From Flavihumibacter soli (GTDB lineage: Bacteria > Bacteroidota > Bacteroidia > Sphingobacteriales > Sphingobacteriaceae), in the NCBI RefSeq assembly GCF_010692725.1, contig NZ_JAAFZB010000095.1, forward strand, positions 124,001 through 188,000: a DNA stretch of 64,000 nucleotides, written 5' to 3'. The position numbers and the translations under genes are program-made. This document shows positions 4,289 through 27,298 of this stretch, piece after piece. Below the pieces are notes generated by a model, which was not told the origin of the DNA, did not search any database, and saw only the letters and a list, made by a program, of their open reading frames with translations. Positions within the stretch are counted from its first letter, which is position 1, and each line of letters opens with the position of its first letter.

Positions 4289-5329
4289 ATGACCACTTTA
4301 AAAATCCTTACTTCGTTCAAGAGAAGACTATGTTCAGACTTACATCCTATTTACAGGTGGAAAAAGCAACTGGAAGATTCCGGGATCCTAGTCCACACCT
4401 ACTATGATCATAGAGATAAGGGCTTAAAAAATACTGATACGCTGTTGATCTACAATCGTGACTTCAAAAATCAGTTCACAGACACGAAGCAATTAATAAC
4501 CGCACTGATCGAGCTAAAAAAAGAAGTAAAAAAGTTGATTTGGTTCGACTCAGCTGATTCTTCCGGCAGCATGGATTTCGAAGTTATTCCTTTTGTAGAT
4601 GTCTTTCTAAAAAAACAGGTACTTAAAGATTTGGAATACTACACAGGCGAAAACGGAAATACGCAAGTTCGGATCTGGCTTGACCCAAAGGCCGAACAAA
4701 AGCAATTGATCCCCTGTCCAATCGATATGACGCATAAAATCAAGACAGGATGGAACTTATCGTATTATGACTACCGTCCCTATGACGCCAGAATTAAGCA
4801 AATTGTAAGTAATAGCTTAAGTTATAAACTCTACCCAACCAAGTTTTACCAGGCAACCCAACCCCGGCCGCTGGATTTAACATACAGAGGTACGCTTAAA
4901 TCCAACAACCTCATATCGTTCCAACGAAATAAGGTGATAGGGATGCTAAATGAGTTGCATCTGAACATCGCACATGGGAGCATAGTCTCTCAAAAGGAAT
5001 ATTTAAAAGAGCTAACTAAATCAAAAGTCAGCATAAGCCCTTTTGGATGGGGAGAAATATGTTATCGAGACTTCGAAACTTTTATCTGCGGCTCTATATT
5101 AATAAAACCATCAATGGAACATGTGAATACTTTTCCGAATATTTTTGTTAAAAACCAGACCTACATTCCTGTACAATGGGATTTAAGTGACTTAGAGGAG
5201 AAGATCGTAGAGGTTATTAGCAACCATGAATCGTACACACATATCGCAGTTAGCGGACAGGAAGCATACAAACGCGTGATTAGTGATCCCGATGGGTTTA
5301 TTAAACATTTGAAAGGCATTATGGAATAA
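4289..5329 (+). CDS. Putative glycosyltransferase (paralogue of next gene)
   Basis: The product has 346 residues, no signal peptide and no membrane segment, so it is cytoplasmic. The N-terminal half is variable, with Lys-Leu-Ile-Trp-Phe-Asp-Ser-Ala-Asp around residue 90. The conserved C-terminal block (about residues 240-310) has Ser-Pro-Phe-Gly-Trp-Gly-Glu-Ile-Cys-Tyr-Arg-Asp-Phe-Glu, then Lys-Pro-Ser-Met-Glu-His and Tyr-Ile-Pro-Val-Gln-Trp-Asp. Such a Gly-Glu...Arg-Asp-(Phe/Tyr)-Glu followed by a Lys-Pro-x-Met-x-His block is seen in GT-B-like (CgeB/exostosin-type) glycosyltransferases; donor and acceptor are unknown. It is about 45-50% identical by eye to 5453-6550 and follows it in the same direction. 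It lies at the far end of the exopolysaccharide locus on the opposite strand. A ruined copy lies at 940-1150. Confidence 0.6.
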   Translation: MTTLKILTSFKRRLCSDLHPIYRWKKQLEDSGILVHTYYDHRDKGLKNTDTLLIYNRDFKNQFTDTKQLITALIELKKEVKKLIWFDSADSSGSMDFEVIPFVDVFLKKQVLKDLEYYTGENGNTQVRIWLDPKAEQKQLIPCPIDMTHKIKTGWNLSYYDYRPYDARIKQIVSNSLSYKLYPTKFYQATQPRPLDLTYRGTLKSNNLISFQRNKVIGMLNELHLNIAHGSIVSQKEYLKELTKSKVSISPFGWGEICYRDFETFICGSILIKPSMEHVNTFPNIFVKNQTYIPVQWDLSDLEEKIVEVISNHESYTHIAVSGQEAYKRVISDPDGFIKHLKGIME

Positions 5330-5452
5330 CATTATGTCGCATTTTTACAGCAGCTTCAACATCAGCTGGTAGCAGCCTGAATACCAACATCAAAAGTAAT
5401 TTAACATATAGCCTTATAGAATAATTACCTGGCTCCACTCTCGATCTATTTT

Positions 5453-6550
5453 ATGACTTCAATAAAAATATTAGCATCACCACGCACAGCACTCTTTTCA
5501 GATCTTCACCCTTTTTTTAGATGGAAGAAGCAGTTGAGCGAACAAAACATACATGTGTCGATCTACTTTGACCATAAAAAATTAAAAATCTCCGAACATG
5601 ATCATTTAATTCTCCATCACCGGTATTTTGAAAGCGGCTGGCGAGATTTTTCCAAGCCCATGTCGGAAAATGATAAAACGGTGATCCATTATTTAAAAGA
5701 AGTAAGAAAAAAAGGTTGTCGAATCCTTTGGTGGGACGCTCAGGACACTTCAGGAAGTACAGGCTTTCCTGTGATTCCGTATGTCGATACTTTTATAAAA
5801 AACCAGGTATTAAAAGATAAAACTTATTATACATCTGTCAACAACAGGCCCAATCTACGGGTTTGGTTGGATCCTGAAATTGAGCAAACAGTATTCGTCC
5901 CTTGTCCTTCAGACCAGTTACACAAGATCAAGGTGGGTTGGAATCTCGCATTCAATGACCGCCGTTATTTTCCATTCAAATTACACTACTATTTTAGCAA
6001 CATAACAAGCTATAGAATTAACCCACTTAAATTTACAAACGTTGATGCTGAGCGTCCACTTGACCTTACGTTTCGAGGAAAAGCGAATTATGATAATAAA
6101 TTCCCTCAGCATAATGCCATATCCTTTCAAAGAAATGAAGTTTTTAGACTACTGGAATCCATGAAGTTTAATGTAACCTATGGAAATGTTGTGTCCAGGA
6201 AGCAATATCTGCGAGAGCTGAGTCAATCAAAAATCAGCATCAGCCCATTTGGATACGGAGAGGTATGCTATCGCGATTTTGAAACTTTTATTGCCGGTTC
6301 TATATTAATCAAACCATCAATGGAACATCTGATTACATTCCCAAATCTGTTTCTTCCAAATGAGACATATATTCCGGTTTCATGGGATTTACATGATCTT
6401 CAGGAAAAAGCTGAGTTCGTTATAGCCAATTATAATATGCACAAAGAGATTGCGAAAAATGGTCAGGAAGCATATAGAAATTTCATCAACAGCCCGGATA
6501 TATTTATATCCTCTGTGAAAAACCTGATAAATCAAAACGGCCAATCATAG
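5453..6550 (+). CDS. Putative glycosyltransferase, second paralogue
   Basis: The product has 365 residues, is soluble, and aligns end to end with the product of 4289-5329. It shares Ser-Asp-Leu-His-Pro near the N-terminus, Trp-Trp-Asp-Ala-Gln-Asp-Thr-Ser-Gly-Ser, Pro-Leu-Asp-Leu-Thr-Phe-Arg-Gly, and the C-terminal block Ser-Pro-Phe-Gly-Tyr-Gly-Glu-Val-Cys-Tyr-Arg-Asp-Phe-Glu. A family-level glycosyltransferase role is likely; the substrate cannot be read from sequence. The gene follows its paralogue after 123 bases and converges on the exopolysaccharide cluster, whose last gene ends at 6610. The pair looks like a local tandem duplication that has diverged. A 55-base scrap of the same gene lies at about 1980. 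Confidence 0.6.
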   Translation: MTSIKILASPRTALFSDLHPFFRWKKQLSEQNIHVSIYFDHKKLKISEHDHLILHHRYFESGWRDFSKPMSENDKTVIHYLKEVRKKGCRILWWDAQDTSGSTGFPVIPYVDTFIKNQVLKDKTYYTSVNNRPNLRVWLDPEIEQTVFVPCPSDQLHKIKVGWNLAFNDRRYFPFKLHYYFSNITSYRINPLKFTNVDAERPLDLTFRGKANYDNKFPQHNAISFQRNEVFRLLESMKFNVTYGNVVSRKQYLRELSQSKISISPFGYGEVCYRDFETFIAGSILIKPSMEHLITFPNLFLPNETYIPVSWDLHDLQEKAEFVIANYNMHKEIAKNGQEAYRNFINSPDIFISSVKNLINQNGQS

Positions 6551-6609
6551 CTATCATAGCTTACAGGCAATATTAATTATGTATGAAGCTTGTCAAGGGT
6601 AGCTTTACA

Positions 6610-7689
6610 CTACGCTGGAATACTGTCTAATATTGAGCCGATGAAATTTTCAGGAGTCCTGTGATAAAGAGCAGCCAAATTTTGATTATTATTCTTGTGC
6701 CTATTTAATTCCAGCTCTAATGCTATGGCATTCGTTAATCCATTTATATCATTTACTTTCACTTTTCGGACTGAATCAAATGCTTCTATTCCACCGGCGC
6801 ACAATGAACTGACAACGGAACTATTAAGCGCCATCATCTGTAACAGGACATTTGGAAATCCTTCGCGGATCGAAGAGACAACGCAAACTTCCGCCCGCTT
6901 AAAGTAAGGAAAGGGGTTATCAACAAATCCCTTTAAAATTACTTTCTGCTTCAAATCCAGATCATTAATTAGCTTCTGTAGTCTTTCCTTTTCTTCGCCC
7001 TCTCCTAAAATCAATAACTTAAGATCAGGATATTTTCCTGAAAGTTCTGAGAACGACTTTATTAACAAATCAAAGCCCTTTATGGCTATTAACCTGCCGG
7101 CGGAACAAATATATTTTCCCTCGAAAATATCATCTGCCACAGCAACCTCCGCCTTTTTTAATATCGAGTGAACATCCACAGGGTTCTCTTGTACTATTAC
7201 GCTTTTATCCGTCAAGAATGGAAGATTAAATAAAAGCTGCTCTTTCATTTCAAGCGTTTGACAAATCGACAAATTTATTGAAGGATAACCCAGATAATAA
7301 GCCAGTTTGTAACTTAATCGTTTTAAGCCTGAAAATCTCAAAAATACCGAGGTAGATTCTCGGGCTATAAGTGTTGACTCCAGGTACCCAATTCGCTTTA
7401 AAAATCCTAAGAAAGCGTTTAAATACGAATGAGAACTTATAATAATATATCCCTTTCTGTACTGACCCAGCTCTTTAAATAGAAGGATAAATCCCCAAAG
7501 TATCGACTTGTTACTTAAAAACGTAATCTTTTGATGAGTACCATTTATATTCAGGGCGGATGAAGAAGCCCTGCTTAGAAAAAGTAAAGAGCTGTTAGTA
7601 ACCTTCGCAGCCATAAGCAAAATTTGTTCGGCTCCCCCGGCACCATTAGTGAGAGAAATATAAAGTATCTTATTATTTAAAGTCTTCAT
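6610..7689 (-). CDS. Family 4 glycosyltransferase with altered E-x7-E motif
   Basis: The product has 359 residues with GT-B fold landmarks: an N-terminal Gly-Ala-Gly-Gly-Ala-Glu-Gln loop, Ser-Ala-Gly-Arg-Leu-Ile-Ala-Ile-Lys-Gly-Phe at about 192, and a C-terminal Arg-Glu-Gly-Phe-Pro-Asn-Val-Leu-Leu-Gln. GT4 enzymes normally carry Glu-x7-Glu here; in this protein the second Glu is Gln. The fold and the Lys/Arg that bind the donor phosphates are retained, so it may be active with changed kinetics or donor. It is the last gene of the exopolysaccharide operon. Its start overlaps the stop of the upstream epimerase gene by 4 bases, implying coupled translation. It should act on the cytoplasmic face, adding one sugar to the lipid-linked repeat unit. 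Confidence 0.8.
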   Translation of the reverse strand: MKTLNNKILYISLTNGAGGAEQILLMAAKVTNSSLLFLSRASSSALNINGTHQKITFLSNKSILWGFILLFKELGQYRKGYIIISSHSYLNAFLGFLKRIGYLESTLIARESTSVFLRFSGLKRLSYKLAYYLGYPSINLSICQTLEMKEQLLFNLPFLTDKSVIVQENPVDVHSILKKAEVAVADDIFEGKYICSAGRLIAIKGFDLLIKSFSELSGKYPDLKLLILGEGEEKERLQKLINDLDLKQKVILKGFVDNPFPYFKRAEVCVVSSIREGFPNVLLQMMALNSSVVSSLCAGGIEAFDSVRKVKVNDINGLTNAIALELELNRHKNNNQNLAALYHRTPENFIGSILDSIPA

Positions 7690-21376: not shown

Positions 21377-22126
21377 TCATCCTTTAACATAATATATGCC
21401 AAACCCGATTAACTCTTTTATATAAATTCCCCATTTACTCAAAATTTCCACCTGGGGAATAAATTCATCTACCGAAACCTTCTTCCTTCCGGCGATATAA
21501 GTTGAAGAATAAGGGATCACCTGTACACCGGCGCGCCTGAATGTGTACAATGCTCTACGCATATGAAATGCAGAGGTAACTAAAAGATATGGCGGGGCCA
21601 ACCCTCTCCTTTTTAACTCCTGGGTAACAAAAAGTGCATTTTCGAGCGTATTCCTGGACTCGCTCTCGATTAGTATACTGCTGTCAGGAACCTGCATTAA
21701 CTTCAGCTCTTCTTTTACCCATACGCTTTCCCGAAACTTCCCGGGAATAATGTCACTATTTCCTCCGGTGATCAACAAATGCGACACCTTCCCGGTCATC
21801 TTCAATTTAAGCCCCTGGATAAACCTGTCGGCATGAGCGTTGAAATAACCCCGCCCATCACCGTCCGACGAGGAAAATCCTCCGAGCACAATCGTGCAGC
21901 TATAAACCTTTTGACTGTTAATATTCCCTGTGTCAACGTCCCAGAGCCGCGAAAATCTATTTAGTAAAAAAGGGTTACTGAAAAGTATAAGTAAAATGAG
22001 GGTATACAGTAAGGCCCGGTTACGAACCCGGTAACTTCTGGAAAATATGCCTAAACAAAGGCCAGCCAGGAGCCAGAGCATTGGATTAAGCAAATGGATT
22101 AGAAGCTTAGAAAGAACAAAGAACAT
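21377..22126 (-). CDS. YdcF/ElyC-like DUF218 membrane protein
   Basis: The product has 249 residues. Two N-terminal hydrophobic helices (about 5-22 and 37-52) precede a DUF218 domain, with Val-Leu-Gly-Gly, Leu-Ile-Thr-Gly-Gly-Asn-Ser, Glu-Ser-Arg-Asn-Thr-Leu-Glu-Asn-Ala and Thr-Ser-Ala-Phe-His-Met-Arg-Arg-Ala. This arrangement matches ElyC/YdcF proteins, which in enterobacteria affect envelope polysaccharide or undecaprenyl-phosphate metabolism; the molecular activity is unclear. It is the last gene of the signalling operon, 25 bases after the HD-YitT gene, and faces the exopolysaccharide locus in the same direction. Confidence 0.8.
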   Translation of the reverse strand: MFFVLSKLLIHLLNPMLWLLAGLCLGIFSRSYRVRNRALLYTLILLILFSNPFLLNRFSRLWDVDTGNINSQKVYSCTIVLGGFSSSDGDGRGYFNAHADRFIQGLKLKMTGKVSHLLITGGNSDIIPGKFRESVWVKEELKLMQVPDSSILIESESRNTLENALFVTQELKRRGLAPPYLLVTSAFHMRRALYTFRRAGVQVIPYSSTYIAGRKKVSVDEFIPQVEILSKWGIYIKELIGFGIYYVKG

Positions 22127-22151: not shown

Positions 22152-23609
22152 CTAATGAGTTGAACGTCTTCTTAAGATTCCACCACTGGCTTCCTTTATC
22201 GTACTGGCAAATACAAAAGCCTTGGAGTCAGTTTCCGCTACCAGGTTCTTTAATTTCCTCATCTCAAGTCTGGTTACAACAGTAAAAATAATATCGCACT
22301 CACTGCTTTGATGAAAGTTACCTGGCAAAAACCCTCTTTCGCCTTTGTAGATTGTTATGCCCCGTCCTAATTGATTTACAAGGCGTTCCTTCATAATATC
22401 ACTTTGGCCCGATATAATCGTAACACCTGTGTAAGCTTCAACACCTTCGACTACATAGTCTACGGTTTTAGAAGCCGTAAAATAAGTTAAGATCGAATAC
22501 AGCGCAGTTTCCACGCCAAATTGAAAGGCGGCACTTAAAAAGATCAGCACATTGATAGCAAGAATAATTTCCGTGATAGTGAAGCTTGTTTTCTTAATGG
22601 TGAATAATGCTAAAATTTCAACTCCGTCCAATGCGCATCCCGCTCTCATCGTTAAACCAATGCCAATACCTAGAAAAAACCCTCCAAATATTGATATTAG
22701 TAGTTTATCCGAAGTAATGATCGGATAAGGGAAGTACAACAAACAAATACCTAATAACAAAACACAGATAAAAGTCTTGACTGCAAATTTGAAGTTGATG
22801 GCGAAGTAACTTGCCAGAATAAAAGGAATGTTGGCAAGAACTATGATGTATCCAAGATTGAAATGATATTGCTCATGAAGAAGCAGTGAAATTCCGGTTA
22901 TACCGCCATCAAAAAAATGATTTGGTACCAGAAAGCCCTTTAGCGCAAAGCCAGCGATAACCACACCAGTTATGATGAGAAGAAAATCCTGAATAACAAA
23001 TCCTGCATCAGCCTGGCCGACGTGGACCGAATTATAATTCCTGAGAAGAATTTTCAGATTATGCGCTTTTTTTTGCGCAAATCGCCTGTTTGCCGCTTGT
23101 GTAAAATAACTATGGGATTTCAAAAACTGAATCTGTTTCTGTTCCCACATTTCGATAACAGGTACATCCTGCAGTGATTTTAATTCCTTATAAAGATTAC
23201 CTGAAATCGTGGTATATGAATCCGTACCCAGGTACGAAAGGTCAGCATCACAGATAATACGTTCCAGCTTACTATTTGGTTGTTGCGGATTTTTAGTTGC
23301 CTGGATCAAACTGCAGACTGTCTCAATCTGTTGAGGGGAATACTCAAAAGCGGGTAAATACTCCCTCGCGAGATCGCATGAGCGCTCCTCATGGTTTTCG
23401 GCAGCACCGGAAAGAAAGCCGGTGTCATGAAACAAAGCGGCTGTACCAAGGATGGTTTTTTCTTCTTCACTTAGCCCTTCGTCATCGGCCAGCTGCATGA
23501 CCACTTCAGTCACCCTGGCTGTATGCGCATCGTTATGGTAAGTAAGATGCTGCGGAAGCTCATTCTGCAGTTTATGGTGTATAAAGGCTGTTATTTTGGA
23601 ATATTGCAT
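22152..23609 (-). CDS. HD phosphohydrolase fused to YitT/DUF2179 membrane protein
   Basis: The product has 485 residues. Residues 1-190 are an HD-domain phosphohydrolase with its metal ligands visible: Tyr24-His25...His29, His61-Asp62-Thr-Gly, His73-Glu74-Glu75, and Cys-Asp121-Ala-Asp123. Residues about 205-400 are five or so membrane helices of the YitT (DUF161) family, including Phe-Phe-Asp-Gly-Gly-Ile-Thr-Gly. Residues about 405-480 are a DUF2179 domain (Gly-Arg-Gly-Ile-Thr-Ile-Tyr-Lys-Gly; Arg-Leu-Glu-Met-Arg-Lys-Leu). YitT proteins normally stand alone at about 290 residues. There is no sign of a frameshift or lost stop at the join. HD enzymes cleave phosphoesters, often nucleotide signals; the gene follows a nucleotide cyclase by 10 bases, so cyclic-nucleotide hydrolysis is a reasonable but untested idea. 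Confidence 0.85.
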   Translation of the reverse strand: MQYSKITAFIHHKLQNELPQHLTYHNDAHTARVTEVVMQLADDEGLSEEEKTILGTAALFHDTGFLSGAAENHEERSCDLAREYLPAFEYSPQQIETVCSLIQATKNPQQPNSKLERIICDADLSYLGTDSYTTISGNLYKELKSLQDVPVIEMWEQKQIQFLKSHSYFTQAANRRFAQKKAHNLKILLRNYNSVHVGQADAGFVIQDFLLIITGVVIAGFALKGFLVPNHFFDGGITGISLLLHEQYHFNLGYIIVLANIPFILASYFAINFKFAVKTFICVLLLGICLLYFPYPIITSDKLLISIFGGFFLGIGIGLTMRAGCALDGVEILALFTIKKTSFTITEIILAINVLIFLSAAFQFGVETALYSILTYFTASKTVDYVVEGVEAYTGVTIISGQSDIMKERLVNQLGRGITIYKGERGFLPGNFHQSSECDIIFTVVTRLEMRKLKNLVAETDSKAFVFASTIKEASGGILRRRSTH

Positions 23610-23619
23610 ATGACTCCAC

Positions 23620-24657
23620 CTAATTTAAGACTTCATAAAGTATTCCGGGCTCCTTTTTATTCTTCAGCTTAATTTCACCAACCAGATTGCAGGTAAATGA
23701 CTCCTGGATTTTTCGATATGAATCTTCGTTTATAAATATTTGACCTTCCTGTGCGGCAGATTGTAACCTTTGGGCGGTATTTACAACATCTCCAATTACC
23801 GTGTAATCAAGTCGCCTTAAACTGCCCGAGCCTATATTTCCTGATATCACTTCCCCGCTATCCAGACCGATCGAAACTCGTGGTTTGAAATGAAGGTCAT
23901 CTAAATCAGGCAAGTTTTCTATCTGCTTTCTCACTGATAAAGAAGCTTCCACCGCCCTGTCCAGGTGGAAGTCGCCTTTGAAGACAGCCATCACCGCGTC
24001 CCCCATAAACTTGTCTACATATCCTCCGGATTCGATTATGGCTTCCACCATTACATCAAAATACCTGTTCAGAAGTTTTACTACAACATCAGCGGGTTCC
24101 TTTTCCGAGATAGATGTAAAGCCGCAAATATCAACAAACATAACGGTTGCTTCAAGGGTCTCATTTACTAACAGGGAGGTCTCGAACTCCTTTCGGCTCA
24201 TAAAATTCAAAACCGTCTCATCCACATACATCCGTAAAATATTGTTTTCCTTAACGGCTTTTAAGGTCTCTCTGAGCTGAAAGACATGGGAGATTGTCTT
24301 CTCAATGGTCAATTCCAGATCATCAAAGTTTACGGGTTTGCAAACAAAGTCAAAAGCACCGCGATTCATTGCTGTTCTGATATTATCCATATCACCATAA
24401 GCAGAAACCATAACAGCTTTTACCAACGGATTTTCCTCATTTAGCCGGGTAAGTAAAGATAAGCCGTCCAAACCCGGCATGTTGATATCACTCAATACAA
24501 TAGCTATATCAGGATGTTCATGCAGCTTATCGAGTGCCTGATTTCCATCAAGGGCGAATACAAATTCATATTTGTTTTCCCGGATCTGCCGTCTGAATTT
24601 TTGTTTGATTAGTATCTCCAGATCTACCTCATCATCAGCAACTAATATTTTTGGCAT
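23620..24657 (-). CDS. Response regulator with class III adenylate cyclase output domain
   Basis: The product has 345 residues. The receiver domain (1-122) has Asp8-Asp9, phospho-acceptor Asp57 in Ser-Asp-Ile-Asn-Met-Pro-Gly, and Cys-Lys-Pro. A short helical linker follows. The class III cyclase domain (about 165-345) has Val-Asp-Ile-Cys-Gly-Phe-Thr with the first metal Asp, Asp-Lys-Phe-Met-Gly-Asp with the second metal Asp and the base-selecting Lys, and Asp-Tyr-Thr-Val-Ile-Gly-Asp-Val-Val-Asn-Thr-Ala-Gln-Arg with the second base-selecting Asp plus transition-state Asn and Arg. Lys and Asp at the base-reading positions indicate ATP, hence cAMP. All catalytic residues are present. It lies 2 bases after a stand-alone receiver and 10 bases before the HD-YitT gene. 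Confidence 0.9.
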   Translation of the reverse strand: MPKILVADDEVDLEILIKQKFRRQIRENKYEFVFALDGNQALDKLHEHPDIAIVLSDINMPGLDGLSLLTRLNEENPLVKAVMVSAYGDMDNIRTAMNRGAFDFVCKPVNFDDLELTIEKTISHVFQLRETLKAVKENNILRMYVDETVLNFMSRKEFETSLLVNETLEATVMFVDICGFTSISEKEPADVVVKLLNRYFDVMVEAIIESGGYVDKFMGDAVMAVFKGDFHLDRAVEASLSVRKQIENLPDLDDLHFKPRVSIGLDSGEVISGNIGSGSLRRLDYTVIGDVVNTAQRLQSAAQEGQIFINEDSYRKIQESFTCNLVGEIKLKNKKEPGILYEVLN

Positions 24658-24659
24658 AC

Positions 24660-25043
24660 TCAGCTCAGTTTAAGTTTTTGTTTAAGCAGCAGAAAGTCAA
24701 TCGGCTTTGTGAGAAAATCATCGGCACCCAGATTGATGGCATTGGTATAGTTCTCCGCATCTCCATAGGCCGTTATCATCATAACAATCGGCGGCGGGGT
24801 GCGAAACCTTTGCTTGATGCGTTGCAGCAATTCCAGGCCGCTCATACCTGGCATATTAATATCTGATAATATCAATACAGCCTCATGGTCATTTGCCTCC
24901 ATATAAGAAAGTGCATCTTCGCCTGATGATGCGAATGCAAATTCGACCATTCCATTCTTAATCTCCTTTCTAAATCGCTGCTCAAAAAGAGATTGCATGT
25001 CCTTTTCATCATCAACAGCAAGAATTTTCATCGTTGTTCCCAT
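24660..25043 (-). CDS. Single-domain response regulator
   Basis: The product has 127 residues and is a receiver domain only. Acidic pair Asp-Asp-Glu follows Lys-Ile-Leu-Ala-Val, the phospho-acceptor Asp lies in Leu-Ser-Asp-Ile-Asn-Met-Pro-Gly, and the late Thr and Lys lie in Thr-Ala-Tyr-Gly-Asp and Thr-Lys-Pro. No output domain follows, so it works as a phospho-relay or by protein contact. It shares one base with the kinase stop codon (TAATG overlap), and its stop is 2 bases before the cyclase-regulator start, so the three are translated as a unit. A start four codons later (Met-Lys-Ile) is also possible. Confidence 0.9.
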   Translation of the reverse strand: MGTTMKILAVDDEKDMQSLFEQRFRKEIKNGMVEFAFASSGEDALSYMEANDHEAVLILSDINMPGMSGLELLQRIKQRFRTPPPIVMMITAYGDAENYTNAINLGADDFLTKPIDFLLLKQKLKLS

Positions 25044-26410
25044 TATGATAAATTAAGCGGAATAAAAATATTGAACTCGGCATATTCACCCTCTCTTGTG
25101 GAAACTTTCATTTCCCCCTGGTGGCCTTTAGTAATAATATCATAGCTTAATGACAACCCTAGTCCGGTTCCCTCACCTGCGGGCTTTGTTGTAAAAAAAG
25201 GCTGATAAATTTTATCGAGCGCCTTTGGCGGAATACCAAGCCCGTTATCGCGGATCTTTATAAGGATTTTATTTTTATATTTTTTTGTTTGAACAGACAC
25301 TGTCGGTTCATATAGGTTTTCGGAATGTTTCCTTTTCTGGTTGACAGAATAGAACGCATTGGTCAATAAATTGAGAATAACCCGACCCAGATCTTGCGGC
25401 AAAACATTTACTTTCCCTACTGAACTATCGAAGTCAGTCTGCATTATGGCATTGAAACTTTTGTCTTTGGCTCTTAATCCGTGGTAGCTTAAGCGGAGAT
25501 ATTCGTCGGCCAAGGCATTTATATCAACTGGCTCTATTTTACCATTACTGCTTCGGGAATGTTGAAGCATTCCCTTTACTATAGCATCCGCCCGCTTACC
25601 GTGATGTTTTATCTTTGCCAGGTTTTCTTTTAACATCTCCAGAATTTCTGTTTCATTTCCCAGATTTCTGAAGTCCTTTCGTTGCTCTTCCTGCAACTCG
25701 TCAATTAACTCGGCACTTACCTCCGAGAAGTTATTGACAAAATTCAACGGGTTTTGAATTTCATGAGCTATTCCGGCTGTTAATTCACCAAGTGATGCAA
25801 GCTTCTCCTGCTGAATAAGCTGATGCTGCGTGGCACTTAATTCAGCTAATGCCTTTTCAAGATCTTCCTTCTGACTGATGAGTTCCGCTGTCCGCTCCGA
25901 GACCATCATTTCGAGTTCATTTTTTCGAGCTGCTATAATCTTATTTTGCTGCTCTTCAAACTGCCTCTTGAGTCTCTCCTTCTCTAATGCCTTTTGCTGT
26001 TTATTATTATTGACCCACATAATGACAAGCAAAATCAATGAGAAGAGAATACCAGCCTCCATATAACCTTTCCAGGTATTGTAAAGATTCCTGTCAACCG
26101 CCTGCAAGATGTCATTTACAAGAGATATGGCAATAAAGGGAAGTACTCCAATTAACAATGTCCGGCTATGCTTAAGATCGTCCGTTTTATACATGAACAG
26201 GGCAATGGCTATTAATATCAAATGCCAAATCCACTTGGTAATATACTCTGCGTTAAAAGCCACCTCGGCGCCAAGCAAACCAATTCCAATCAGCAGAAAC
26301 CCTCTTAATGGCTTTACAGATAATGAAATACCGTGATCGGAAACTAATGATTTTTGAAGATACCGAATGAGAAAAAAAGCGACCAGAAACGGGGCTAATA
26401 ACATAGACAT
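25043..26410 (-). CDS. Membrane sensor histidine kinase
   Basis: The product has 455 residues. About four membrane helices lie in residues 1-140 with no sizeable periplasmic domain, followed by a coiled coil (about 143-205). The HisKA box is Gly-Ile-Ala-His-Glu-Ile-Gln-Asn-Pro-Leu-Asn-Phe, with phospho-acceptor His around 224. The HATPase domain has an N box (Asn-Leu-Leu-Thr-Asn-Ala), a G1 box (Asp-Asn-Gly-Leu-Gly-Ile) and a G2 box (Gly-Glu-Gly-Thr-Gly-Leu-Gly-Leu). The lack of an external sensor suggests sensing in the membrane or by the coiled-coil region. It is the first gene of the five-gene operon, so the adjoining receiver and receiver-cyclase are its likely partners. Confidence 0.92.
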   Translation of the reverse strand: MSMLLAPFLVAFFLIRYLQKSLVSDHGISLSVKPLRGFLLIGIGLLGAEVAFNAEYITKWIWHLILIAIALFMYKTDDLKHSRTLLIGVLPFIAISLVNDILQAVDRNLYNTWKGYMEAGILFSLILLVIMWVNNNKQQKALEKERLKRQFEEQQNKIIAARKNELEMMVSERTAELISQKEDLEKALAELSATQHQLIQQEKLASLGELTAGIAHEIQNPLNFVNNFSEVSAELIDELQEEQRKDFRNLGNETEILEMLKENLAKIKHHGKRADAIVKGMLQHSRSSNGKIEPVDINALADEYLRLSYHGLRAKDKSFNAIMQTDFDSSVGKVNVLPQDLGRVILNLLTNAFYSVNQKRKHSENLYEPTVSVQTKKYKNKILIKIRDNGLGIPPKALDKIYQPFFTTKPAGEGTGLGLSLSYDIITKGHQGEMKVSTREGEYAEFNIFIPLNLS

Positions 26411-26548: not shown

Positions 26549-27298
26549 TTAATGAACAGGGGTCACTGTCGCATATAATACAACATCATTGAAATCATGG
26601 TCACATTCTGGCAAAGTCCTATTAATGTCTTCAAAGCCAATGATCACCTTGTTCTCCGCCGGATACTCAAATAATACGGTATGGGCTTTGAGTTCATCAT
26701 AGTTTTCCGGATTGAGTTCCTTATTGGAACAAAAATGCGGAGCCTTATCATTCACTTTCCTGGTAGTAAAATCCCATCCCTTTTGAACCAGGACAAATCC
26801 AATGGACATACCCGATTCGAAAACGCCAAGTTTAATTTTATCTCCGGGTTTTAATGTTCCGCCATTATTCGATTGTGCGTGGGGGAACACATACACAATG
26901 TTCTCAATATCTTCGGGCTTTTTAGGTGACTGGCCGGTTTTATAAGCATAATAACCAACCGAATTGGCGAAGCCTGTTCCTTCGGCTACAAATGTGATAT
27001 AAACTTCGGACTTCGCTGTTATTGTCAAATCCGCGTTCTTTAAAAAATCAGGATTTGTTTTCCTTACATCTGTCTTTTCAGGAAGCTTGTCCGTAACGAA
27101 ATTTGAAAGTTCGGATGATACTATATCTTTTTCTGCCAAATTTTTTGGACGTCCCTGTTCGTCATACTCACCCAAATAGCTATACTTTGTAGTGACAAAG
27201 TCAACAGGTGTAGACCCGCCGTTAACCGGCCCTTTATCTTTTTTACAAGAGGTAATTGTAAAAACGAACATAAAAGCGAAAAGTATAAAATTCTTCAT
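26549..27298 (-). CDS. DUF4114-domain lipoprotein
   Basis: The product has 249 residues. The signal peptide ends at a lipobox Cys near 18 followed by Lys-Lys-Asp, the surface-lipoprotein pattern of Bacteroidota. The C-terminal 80 residues carry the DUF4114 hallmark Gly-Phe-Glu-Asp-Ile-Asn-Arg...Cys-Asp-His-Asp-Phe-Asn-Asp-Val-Val-Leu, an Asp-rich pattern that resembles a calcium site. The domain occurs in secreted or surface proteins of unknown role. It stands alone with its own terminator, upstream of the histidine-kinase operon on the same strand. Confidence 0.8.
   Translation of the reverse strand: MKNFILFAFMFVFTITSCKKDKGPVNGGSTPVDFVTTKYSYLGEYDEQGRPKNLAEKDIVSSELSNFVTDKLPEKTDVRKTNPDFLKNADLTITAKSEVYITFVAEGTGFANSVGYYAYKTGQSPKKPEDIENIVYVFPHAQSNNGGTLKPGDKIKLGVFESGMSIGFVLVQKGWDFTTRKVNDKAPHFCSNKELNPENYDELKAHTVLFEYPAENKVIIGFEDINRTLPECDHDFNDVVLYATVTPVH

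Follow-up and report, generated by a model that had tools for sequence, protein, structure and literature searches.

A predicted HD phosphohydrolase joined to a YitT/DUF2179 membrane protein, and its link to a two-component cyclase, in Flavihumibacter soli

What does a phosphohydrolase domain do at the head of a YitT membrane protein? The question is raised by a gene of Flavihumibacter soli, located in a stretch of 64,000 nucleotides (contig NZ_JAAFZB010000095.1, positions 124,001 to 188,000) denoted here as the window, whose numbering is used throughout. The open reading frame (ORF) counts 485 codons, starts with ATG at 23609 and has a stop ending at 22152. An earlier note on this DNA had placed the gene correctly at 22152..23609; the coding strand is the minus one, as the plus-strand translation contains many stops. 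The product is probably a membrane-tethered cyclic-nucleotide phosphodiesterase (PDE) and nucleotide-sensing membrane protein, serving a two-component adenylyl cyclase circuit. It is organized as follows:

23010..23609, minus strand: HD domain, residues 1-200 (Pfam HD at residues 28-123), proposed class I-like cyclic-nucleotide phosphodiesterase
22380..22988, minus strand: YitT membrane domain, residues 208-410 (Pfam PF02588, E 5e-54), helices in the model
22182..22364, minus strand: DUF2179 domain, residues 416-476 (Pfam PF10035, E 2e-11), PII-like predicted fold

As the note had stated, a complete HD phosphohydrolase domain and a YitT membrane part with DUF2179 are found in one protein. E-values refer to the whole protein, and each domain was judged against its own curated cut-off. 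The HD match (PF01966, residues 28-123) has E 1.5e-8 and 35.3 bits against a cut-off of 22; PF02588 and PF10035 follow in the expected order with 183.2 and 43.9 bits, both above their cut-offs. No description of an HD-YitT fusion was found in the literature searched (titles, starts of abstracts and passages, most subscription journals being outside the coverage).

Three genes located upstream on the same strand encode a two-component cyclase system:

23620..24657, minus strand: fusion of a response-regulator receiver to a class III nucleotidyl cyclase (Pfam PF00072 and PF00211), predicted adenylyl type
24660..25043, minus strand: stand-alone receiver (response regulator; Pfam PF00072)
25043..26410, minus strand: histidine kinase (Pfam HisKA and HATPase_c)

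The cyclase gene is 10 bp from HD-YitT, the receiver gene 2 bp from the cyclase, and the kinase gene overlaps the receiver by 1 bp. Class III cyclases feature two metal-binding Asp, a base-binding Lys and Asp, an Asn and an Arg, and a Lys/Asp pair at the base positions denotes the adenine type. All six residues, the Lys and Asp of the base site included, are kept in the window cyclase, as seen by alignment to CyaB and to a photoactivated adenylyl cyclase; among solved structures, CyaB and photoactivated adenylyl cyclases come closest to its catalytic domain. At each position the window residue is kept in 104 to 107 of 107 cyclase domains from the fetched loci, pieces shorter than 130 residues being left out. 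From sequence, the enzyme is predicted to be of the adenylyl type.

HD domains of this family are repeatedly found close to cyclases. An alignment of 21 HD parts (A1), with rows chosen without pattern, provided the profile for collecting HD loci. The 80 loci analysed are the best 80 of 460 confirmed, found by patterns spanning about residues 115-132; nearly all are labelled Bacteroidota, one being Chlorobi and one Williamsia. HD and a class III cyclase share one ORF in 26 of the 80, according to our own hidden Markov models, built partly from loci later scored with them. Pfam confirmed all five full-strength cyclase-HD ORFs checked; in the degenerate ORF L092:11541, it recognized the cyclase and not the HD. 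A cyclase is located elsewhere in the locus in 31 more cases (within flanks of 8 kb or, in some cases, less). YitT is present at 30 loci, 23 of which also host a cyclase, and neither partner at 16. At 29 of the 30 loci HD is followed directly by YitT; in L093 YitT lies upstream. The earlier note had proposed hydrolysis assays with cyclic nucleotides, (p)ppGpp and nucleotides; the adjoining two-component cyclase and the cyclase-HD fusions found elsewhere, both missed there, favour 3',5'-cyclic nucleotides over (p)ppGpp and over nucleotides at large.

The kinase-receiver-cyclase trio was found in 13 of 20 flanked close relatives, and a further one (L041) has four cyclase ORFs in a row; no cyclase was in reach in 6 of the 20. 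Orientation of the trio varies by genome (convergent, divergent or co-directional), which indicates that the cyclase link is not simply a single inherited operon. As a control, 20 stand-alone YitT paralogues of the next similarity class, with flanks of about 8 kb, were compared to 20 higher-scoring YitT loci, both sets picked by hand, roughly in order of score and with some rows skipped. The former have neither cyclase (0/20) nor HD (0/20); of the latter, 17 have a cyclase and 14 an HD (Fisher p 2.6e-8 and 3.3e-6, respectively). The set of 21 relatives, the 80 HD loci and the linked YitT loci overlap in some genomes, and counts are not additive. Chance nearness of the cyclase was rejected on the basis of this control and of the low density of cyclase genes: five PF00211 matches are spread over the 4.4 Mb of the genome, which amounts to about 2% for each 17 kb. 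Three matches to the cyclic nucleotide-binding family PF00027 are also present. Four tandem class III cyclase ORFs stand beside HD and YitT at L041:9843-17458 and L055:2-7967, and cyclases linked to tetratricopeptide repeats (TPR) are present at the HD/YitT loci L054 and L057.

The notion that YitT proteins normally stand alone fails for this branch, as the HD gene directly adjoins YitT in 14 of the 20 loci fetched for YitT, and a view of the fusion as an isolated oddity is not supported. The fused state itself is rare. When 300 genomes of the order were searched with the window protein, 272 gave a match; the matches listed mostly cover the YitT part alone, and 22 other genomes align well into the HD part. 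Among 21 complete loci of these genomes, 8 have a single ORF and 13 a stop between HD and YitT (L025, at a contig end, is left out of this count, and both L024 and L025 are left out of the flanked set). In the full-length listing, fused copies thus occur in 8 of the 299 genomes other than that of the window. Split pairs are undercounted by such a search, because many HD and YitT genes lie in different frames. A missed stop or a frameshift, the artefact foreseen in the note, is judged unlikely, 8 relatives featuring the same single-ORF architecture and 13 having the stop in place.

YitT might be a passenger, HD serving the cyclase while YitT is merely co-transcribed and loss of the stop is neutral. 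In 12 split relatives, all picked for HD and YitT sharing a frame, little or nothing separates the two ORFs, and loss of one stop (two in L043) would fuse them; this and the rarity of fused copies fit the notion. Against it, the fused state requires two changes on a YitT tree of 89 rows, in which the window YitT is set apart from the clade holding the other 8 fusions, and well-supported branches force two. Two separate fusions of a pre-existing HD/YitT gene pair are the simplest reading of this quick tree, made without bootstrap and leaving out L116 (a duplicate of L045) and pieces below 230 residues or 320 bits; its long-branch warning includes the branch of the window YitT. In addition, cyclase-linked and stand-alone YitT proteins are parted in this tree by a branch with 99% support in the Shimodaira-Hasegawa-like approximate likelihood ratio test, and YitT is kept beside the trio, with no HD found nearby, in 4 of 20 loci (L164, L166, L169, L172). 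The latter finding suggests that YitT is itself part of the cyclase module; the HDs in these four genomes are all lower-scoring ones, four out of five in ORFs of about 400 residues. On these grounds a passenger role is unlikely.

The HD domain retains H25, H29, H61, D62, H73, E74, D121, D123, Q159 and F162. Of the ligands listed in the earlier note, His25/29, His61-Asp62 and Asp121/123 are present; the pair given as Glu74-Glu75 is in fact His73-Glu74, Glu75 being variable. H29, H61, D62 and D121 are invariant in A1 and in A3, an alignment of 74 HD rows chosen by hand from the copies available, and D123 is invariant in A1 as well. The patterns used to find A3 sequences span about residues 115-132, and conservation in that tract is partly built in; H25, H29, H61, D62, E74, Q159 and F162 lie outside. 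The predicted fold of the whole 200-residue domain matches the catalytic domain of class I PDEs. The metal pocket of these enzymes is described in passages of PMC5617230 as formed by eight residues (His, His, His, Asp, His, Glu, His, Asp). H25, H29, H61, D62, E74 and D121 pair with them by order and spacing; two of the eight fail, there being no His at either position 65 or position 77 of the window HD. The invariant A3 residues Q159 and F162 have the Q-x-x-F spacing of PDE4D Gln369/Phe372 in passages of PMC11311937, the comparison being by spacing alone; the Giardia paper (PMC5617230) prints a different spacing in its corresponding passages. By sequence profile, no residue-level match of Q159/F162 to PDEs was obtained, as PDE alignments stop near residue 66 and those to HD proteins near residue 130.

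PF00233, the class I PDE family, scores the window HD at 15.3 bits, below the cut-off of 24.8, and is listed for 11 of 21 HD family members, with a best E of 1.5e-4. The cut-off and the two missing pocket residues are the reasons why the domain is not classed as a class I PDE; by analogy, it is claimed to work like one. No PF00233 protein above cut-off was found in 296 genomes of the phylum, and 14 control genomes were also blank and hence provide no positive control. Five sub-threshold matches were recorded: three clearly belong to this HD family (L190, L191, L194), L192 does so weakly (21 bits), and L193 does not.

The domain could instead be a generic nucleotide hydrolase similar to YpgQ or YedJ, the link to the cyclase reflecting shared regulation alone. 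YedJ and 2pq7 are indeed its best PDB sequence matches, 2pq7 and YpgQ with ADP head the Foldseek list of the HD model, and 2pq7 is level with most PDE rows on Z in the fold comparison. Yet PDE alignments shown span 187-193 residues of the HD domain, against 162 and 175, Q159 and F162 are invariant in the 74 rows, and direct fusions to cyclases occur in 26 of the 80 loci. A generic hydrolase is therefore improbable.

The DUF2179 part had been likened to small ligand-binding domains, and a PII-like fold is predicted for it. PII-like proteins form trimers and bind nucleotides in their clefts. In the full-length model (predicted local distance difference test score, pLDDT, 91.1; predicted template modelling score, pTM, 0.71), DUF2179 shows from residue 393 the order beta-alpha-beta-beta-alpha-beta, expected of a PII-type ferredoxin-like fold; pLDDT falls to 63-72 over residues 421-440, and the tail is disordered. 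Foldseek retrieved with the full model 3hlu (a DUF2179 protein), Staphylococcus aureus PstA with cyclic di-AMP, PII, CutA1, and CPII with AMP or ADP. Rows for DUF2179 have E 0.009-0.09 at probability 1.00 (PstA 0.016, PII 0.045, CPII 0.058), and no row of the full-model search reached E 0.001. By sequence profile, 3hlu is a clear match (E 1.5e-9), whereas TM0021 and PH1503 match weakly (E 0.014 and 0.64, respectively); PH1503 appears in the Foldseek list too. The YitT membrane part is absent from the 50 rows shown in both full-model fold comparisons, no search with YitT alone having been made. The PII-like nature of DUF2179 is already proposed for Borrelia BB0017, a YitT family protein whose C-terminal DUF2179 was recognized as PII-like by Phyre2 (passages of PMC6516651). 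In passages of PMC10117731 the PII-like SbtB integrates adenyl nucleotides and cyclic adenosine monophosphate (cAMP); in passages of PMC10434189, a YitT protein is named in a table row.

These elements can be assembled into a circuit in which HD-YitT would be the off-switch and the membrane part. Judging from the domains, the histidine kinase and the receivers would control the response-regulator adenylyl cyclase. The HD would hydrolyse the 3',5'-cyclic nucleotide supplied by the neighbouring cyclase, cAMP being the likeliest, through metal catalysis similar to that of class I PDEs; by analogy, H29, H61, D62 and D121 would hold the metal, H25 would act as the acid, and Q159 and F162 would hold the purine. 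YitT would tether the HD to the inner membrane, and DUF2179, which probably binds an adenine nucleotide, may couple the bound nucleotide either to HD activity or to transport or gating by the membrane part. The fusion, its conserved gene neighbourhood, the cyclase-HD fusions of relatives, the predicted folds and the invariant residues are shown by the present data; substrate, ligand and the direction in which regulation runs are inferred. A bolder version, put forward tentatively and rather doubtful, is a self-terminating cAMP-gated membrane protein, with DUF2179 as PII-type receptor for the cyclic nucleotide of the neighbouring cyclase, YitT as gated transporter or channel, and the HD as on-board PDE.

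Some observations weigh against full activity of the HD or against a cAMP-specific ligand. At residue 32 (window 23514-23516) the HD carries Arg, and Asp is found in each of the other 114 full-strength HDs in the alignment, some genomes being included twice; full activity may be affected. Six loci (L073, L092, L102, L107, L125, L127; five carry the label Bacteroidales) encode, next to an intact cyclase-HD protein, another cyclase ORF with a C-terminal HD-like region, in which H61 and D62 have been lost in 6 cases out of 6. Inactive versions thus occur in the HD family, and these ORFs are possible pseudo-phosphodiesterase sensors. As to a cAMP-specific ligand, linked (27 rows) and stand-alone (10 rows) DUF2179 domains differ consistently at positions 410, 411, 418, 451 and 467 only, and three of the five differences are Ile/Val/Leu exchanges. 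The window HD might accordingly be weakened or inactive, binding the cyclic nucleotide and relaying the signal to YitT, a view with which Arg32, the long branch of the window YitT and the degenerate relatives, one of which is encoded by the same genome, all agree. The full set of ten residues from H25 to F162 is nevertheless kept, and loss of activity appears distinctly unlikely.

Besides HD-YitT, three further HDs of the family are encoded by the same genome. Two are fused to PycTM (PF18967). In the protein at L186:3731-5017, which may be a binding-only sensor, HE replaces HD and no Q-x-x-F is visible by eye; within 9 kb of it lie kinases and a response-regulator cyclase. No cyclase was found in the 17 kb fetched around the other (L187:7589-8791). 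Coexistence of HD-YitT and HD-PycTM copies indicates that pairing of an HD with a membrane domain is a recurring design in this genome. The third HD (L185:12812-13417) is a stand-alone one; a TPR cyclase (5169-7298) lies 5.5 kb away, beyond a large subtilase-type ORF (1749 amino acids, secretion-tail domain).

The HD-PycTM paralogues, and the match of the window cyclase to PADLOC PycC models (best 86.6 bits), might suggest a Pycsar-like defence against phages, in which the effector would be a membrane protein. Pycsar systems combine a cyclase with a PycTM or TIR-type effector; PADLOC matched the cyclase and the HD-PycTM paralogues only, and none of its models matched the HD-YitT protein. Moreover, the cyclase is joined to a receiver and preceded by a kinase, and many related genomes have the same trio next to HD-YitT. 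A defence role is hence very improbable.

Two more genes flank the region:

21377..22126, minus strand: DUF218 protein (Pfam PF02698), downstream of HD-YitT
26549-27298: DUF4114 protein, perhaps secreted, upstream of the kinase

The DUF218 gene follows HD-YitT after a gap of 25 bp in the same gene run. It has no match among the ORFs of the 20 flanked relatives, was rejected as a module member on this account, and is probably outside the HD-YitT module.

YitT proteins have a wide distribution, being encoded in 5 of 14 control genomes, and in passages of PMC4944035 and PMC6516651 no molecular function is assigned to them. Similarity of the HD domain to cAMP-degrading PDEs and the adjoining, likely cAMP-making enzyme suggest that this YitT branch works in cAMP signalling. 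A branch that travels, and in the simplest reading fused twice, with a PDE-like enzyme near an adenylyl cyclase provides a concrete, testable lead, namely cyclic nucleotides. The window HD is by predicted fold a small bacterial relative of animal PDE drug targets, and cyclase-HD, HD-YitT and HD-PycTM are natural fusions available for comparison. If true, the self-terminating cAMP-gated protein would stand in a phylum in which the 296-genome sample showed no standard class I PDE.

Among known systems, class I PDEs (PF00233; PDE10A, PDE7A, PDE4, RhoPDE) share with the window HD the predicted fold over all 200 residues, the HxxxH and HD motifs, the metal Asp and, as judged from spacing, possibly Q-x-x-F. 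In contrast to them (chains of about 280-330 residues versus about 200), the window HD lacks HDxxH, falls below the Pfam cut-off, is bacterial and is fused to a membrane protein. The HD-superfamily hydrolases YedJ, 2pq7 and YpgQ are the top PDB sequence and Foldseek matches, but their sequence match stops near residue 130, short of Q159 and F162. The PII-like PstA and CPII have a fold in common with the DUF2179 model; these two and SbtB are free soluble proteins, whereas the window DUF2179 is part of a membrane protein. Borrelia BB0017 has the YitT/DUF2179 organization, and in the passages of PMC6516651 it features neither an HD domain nor a link to a cyclase. In the two HD-PycTM proteins of the same genome, one of which has a degenerate HD, an HD of the same family is joined to a membrane effector-type domain, PycTM taking the place of YitT.
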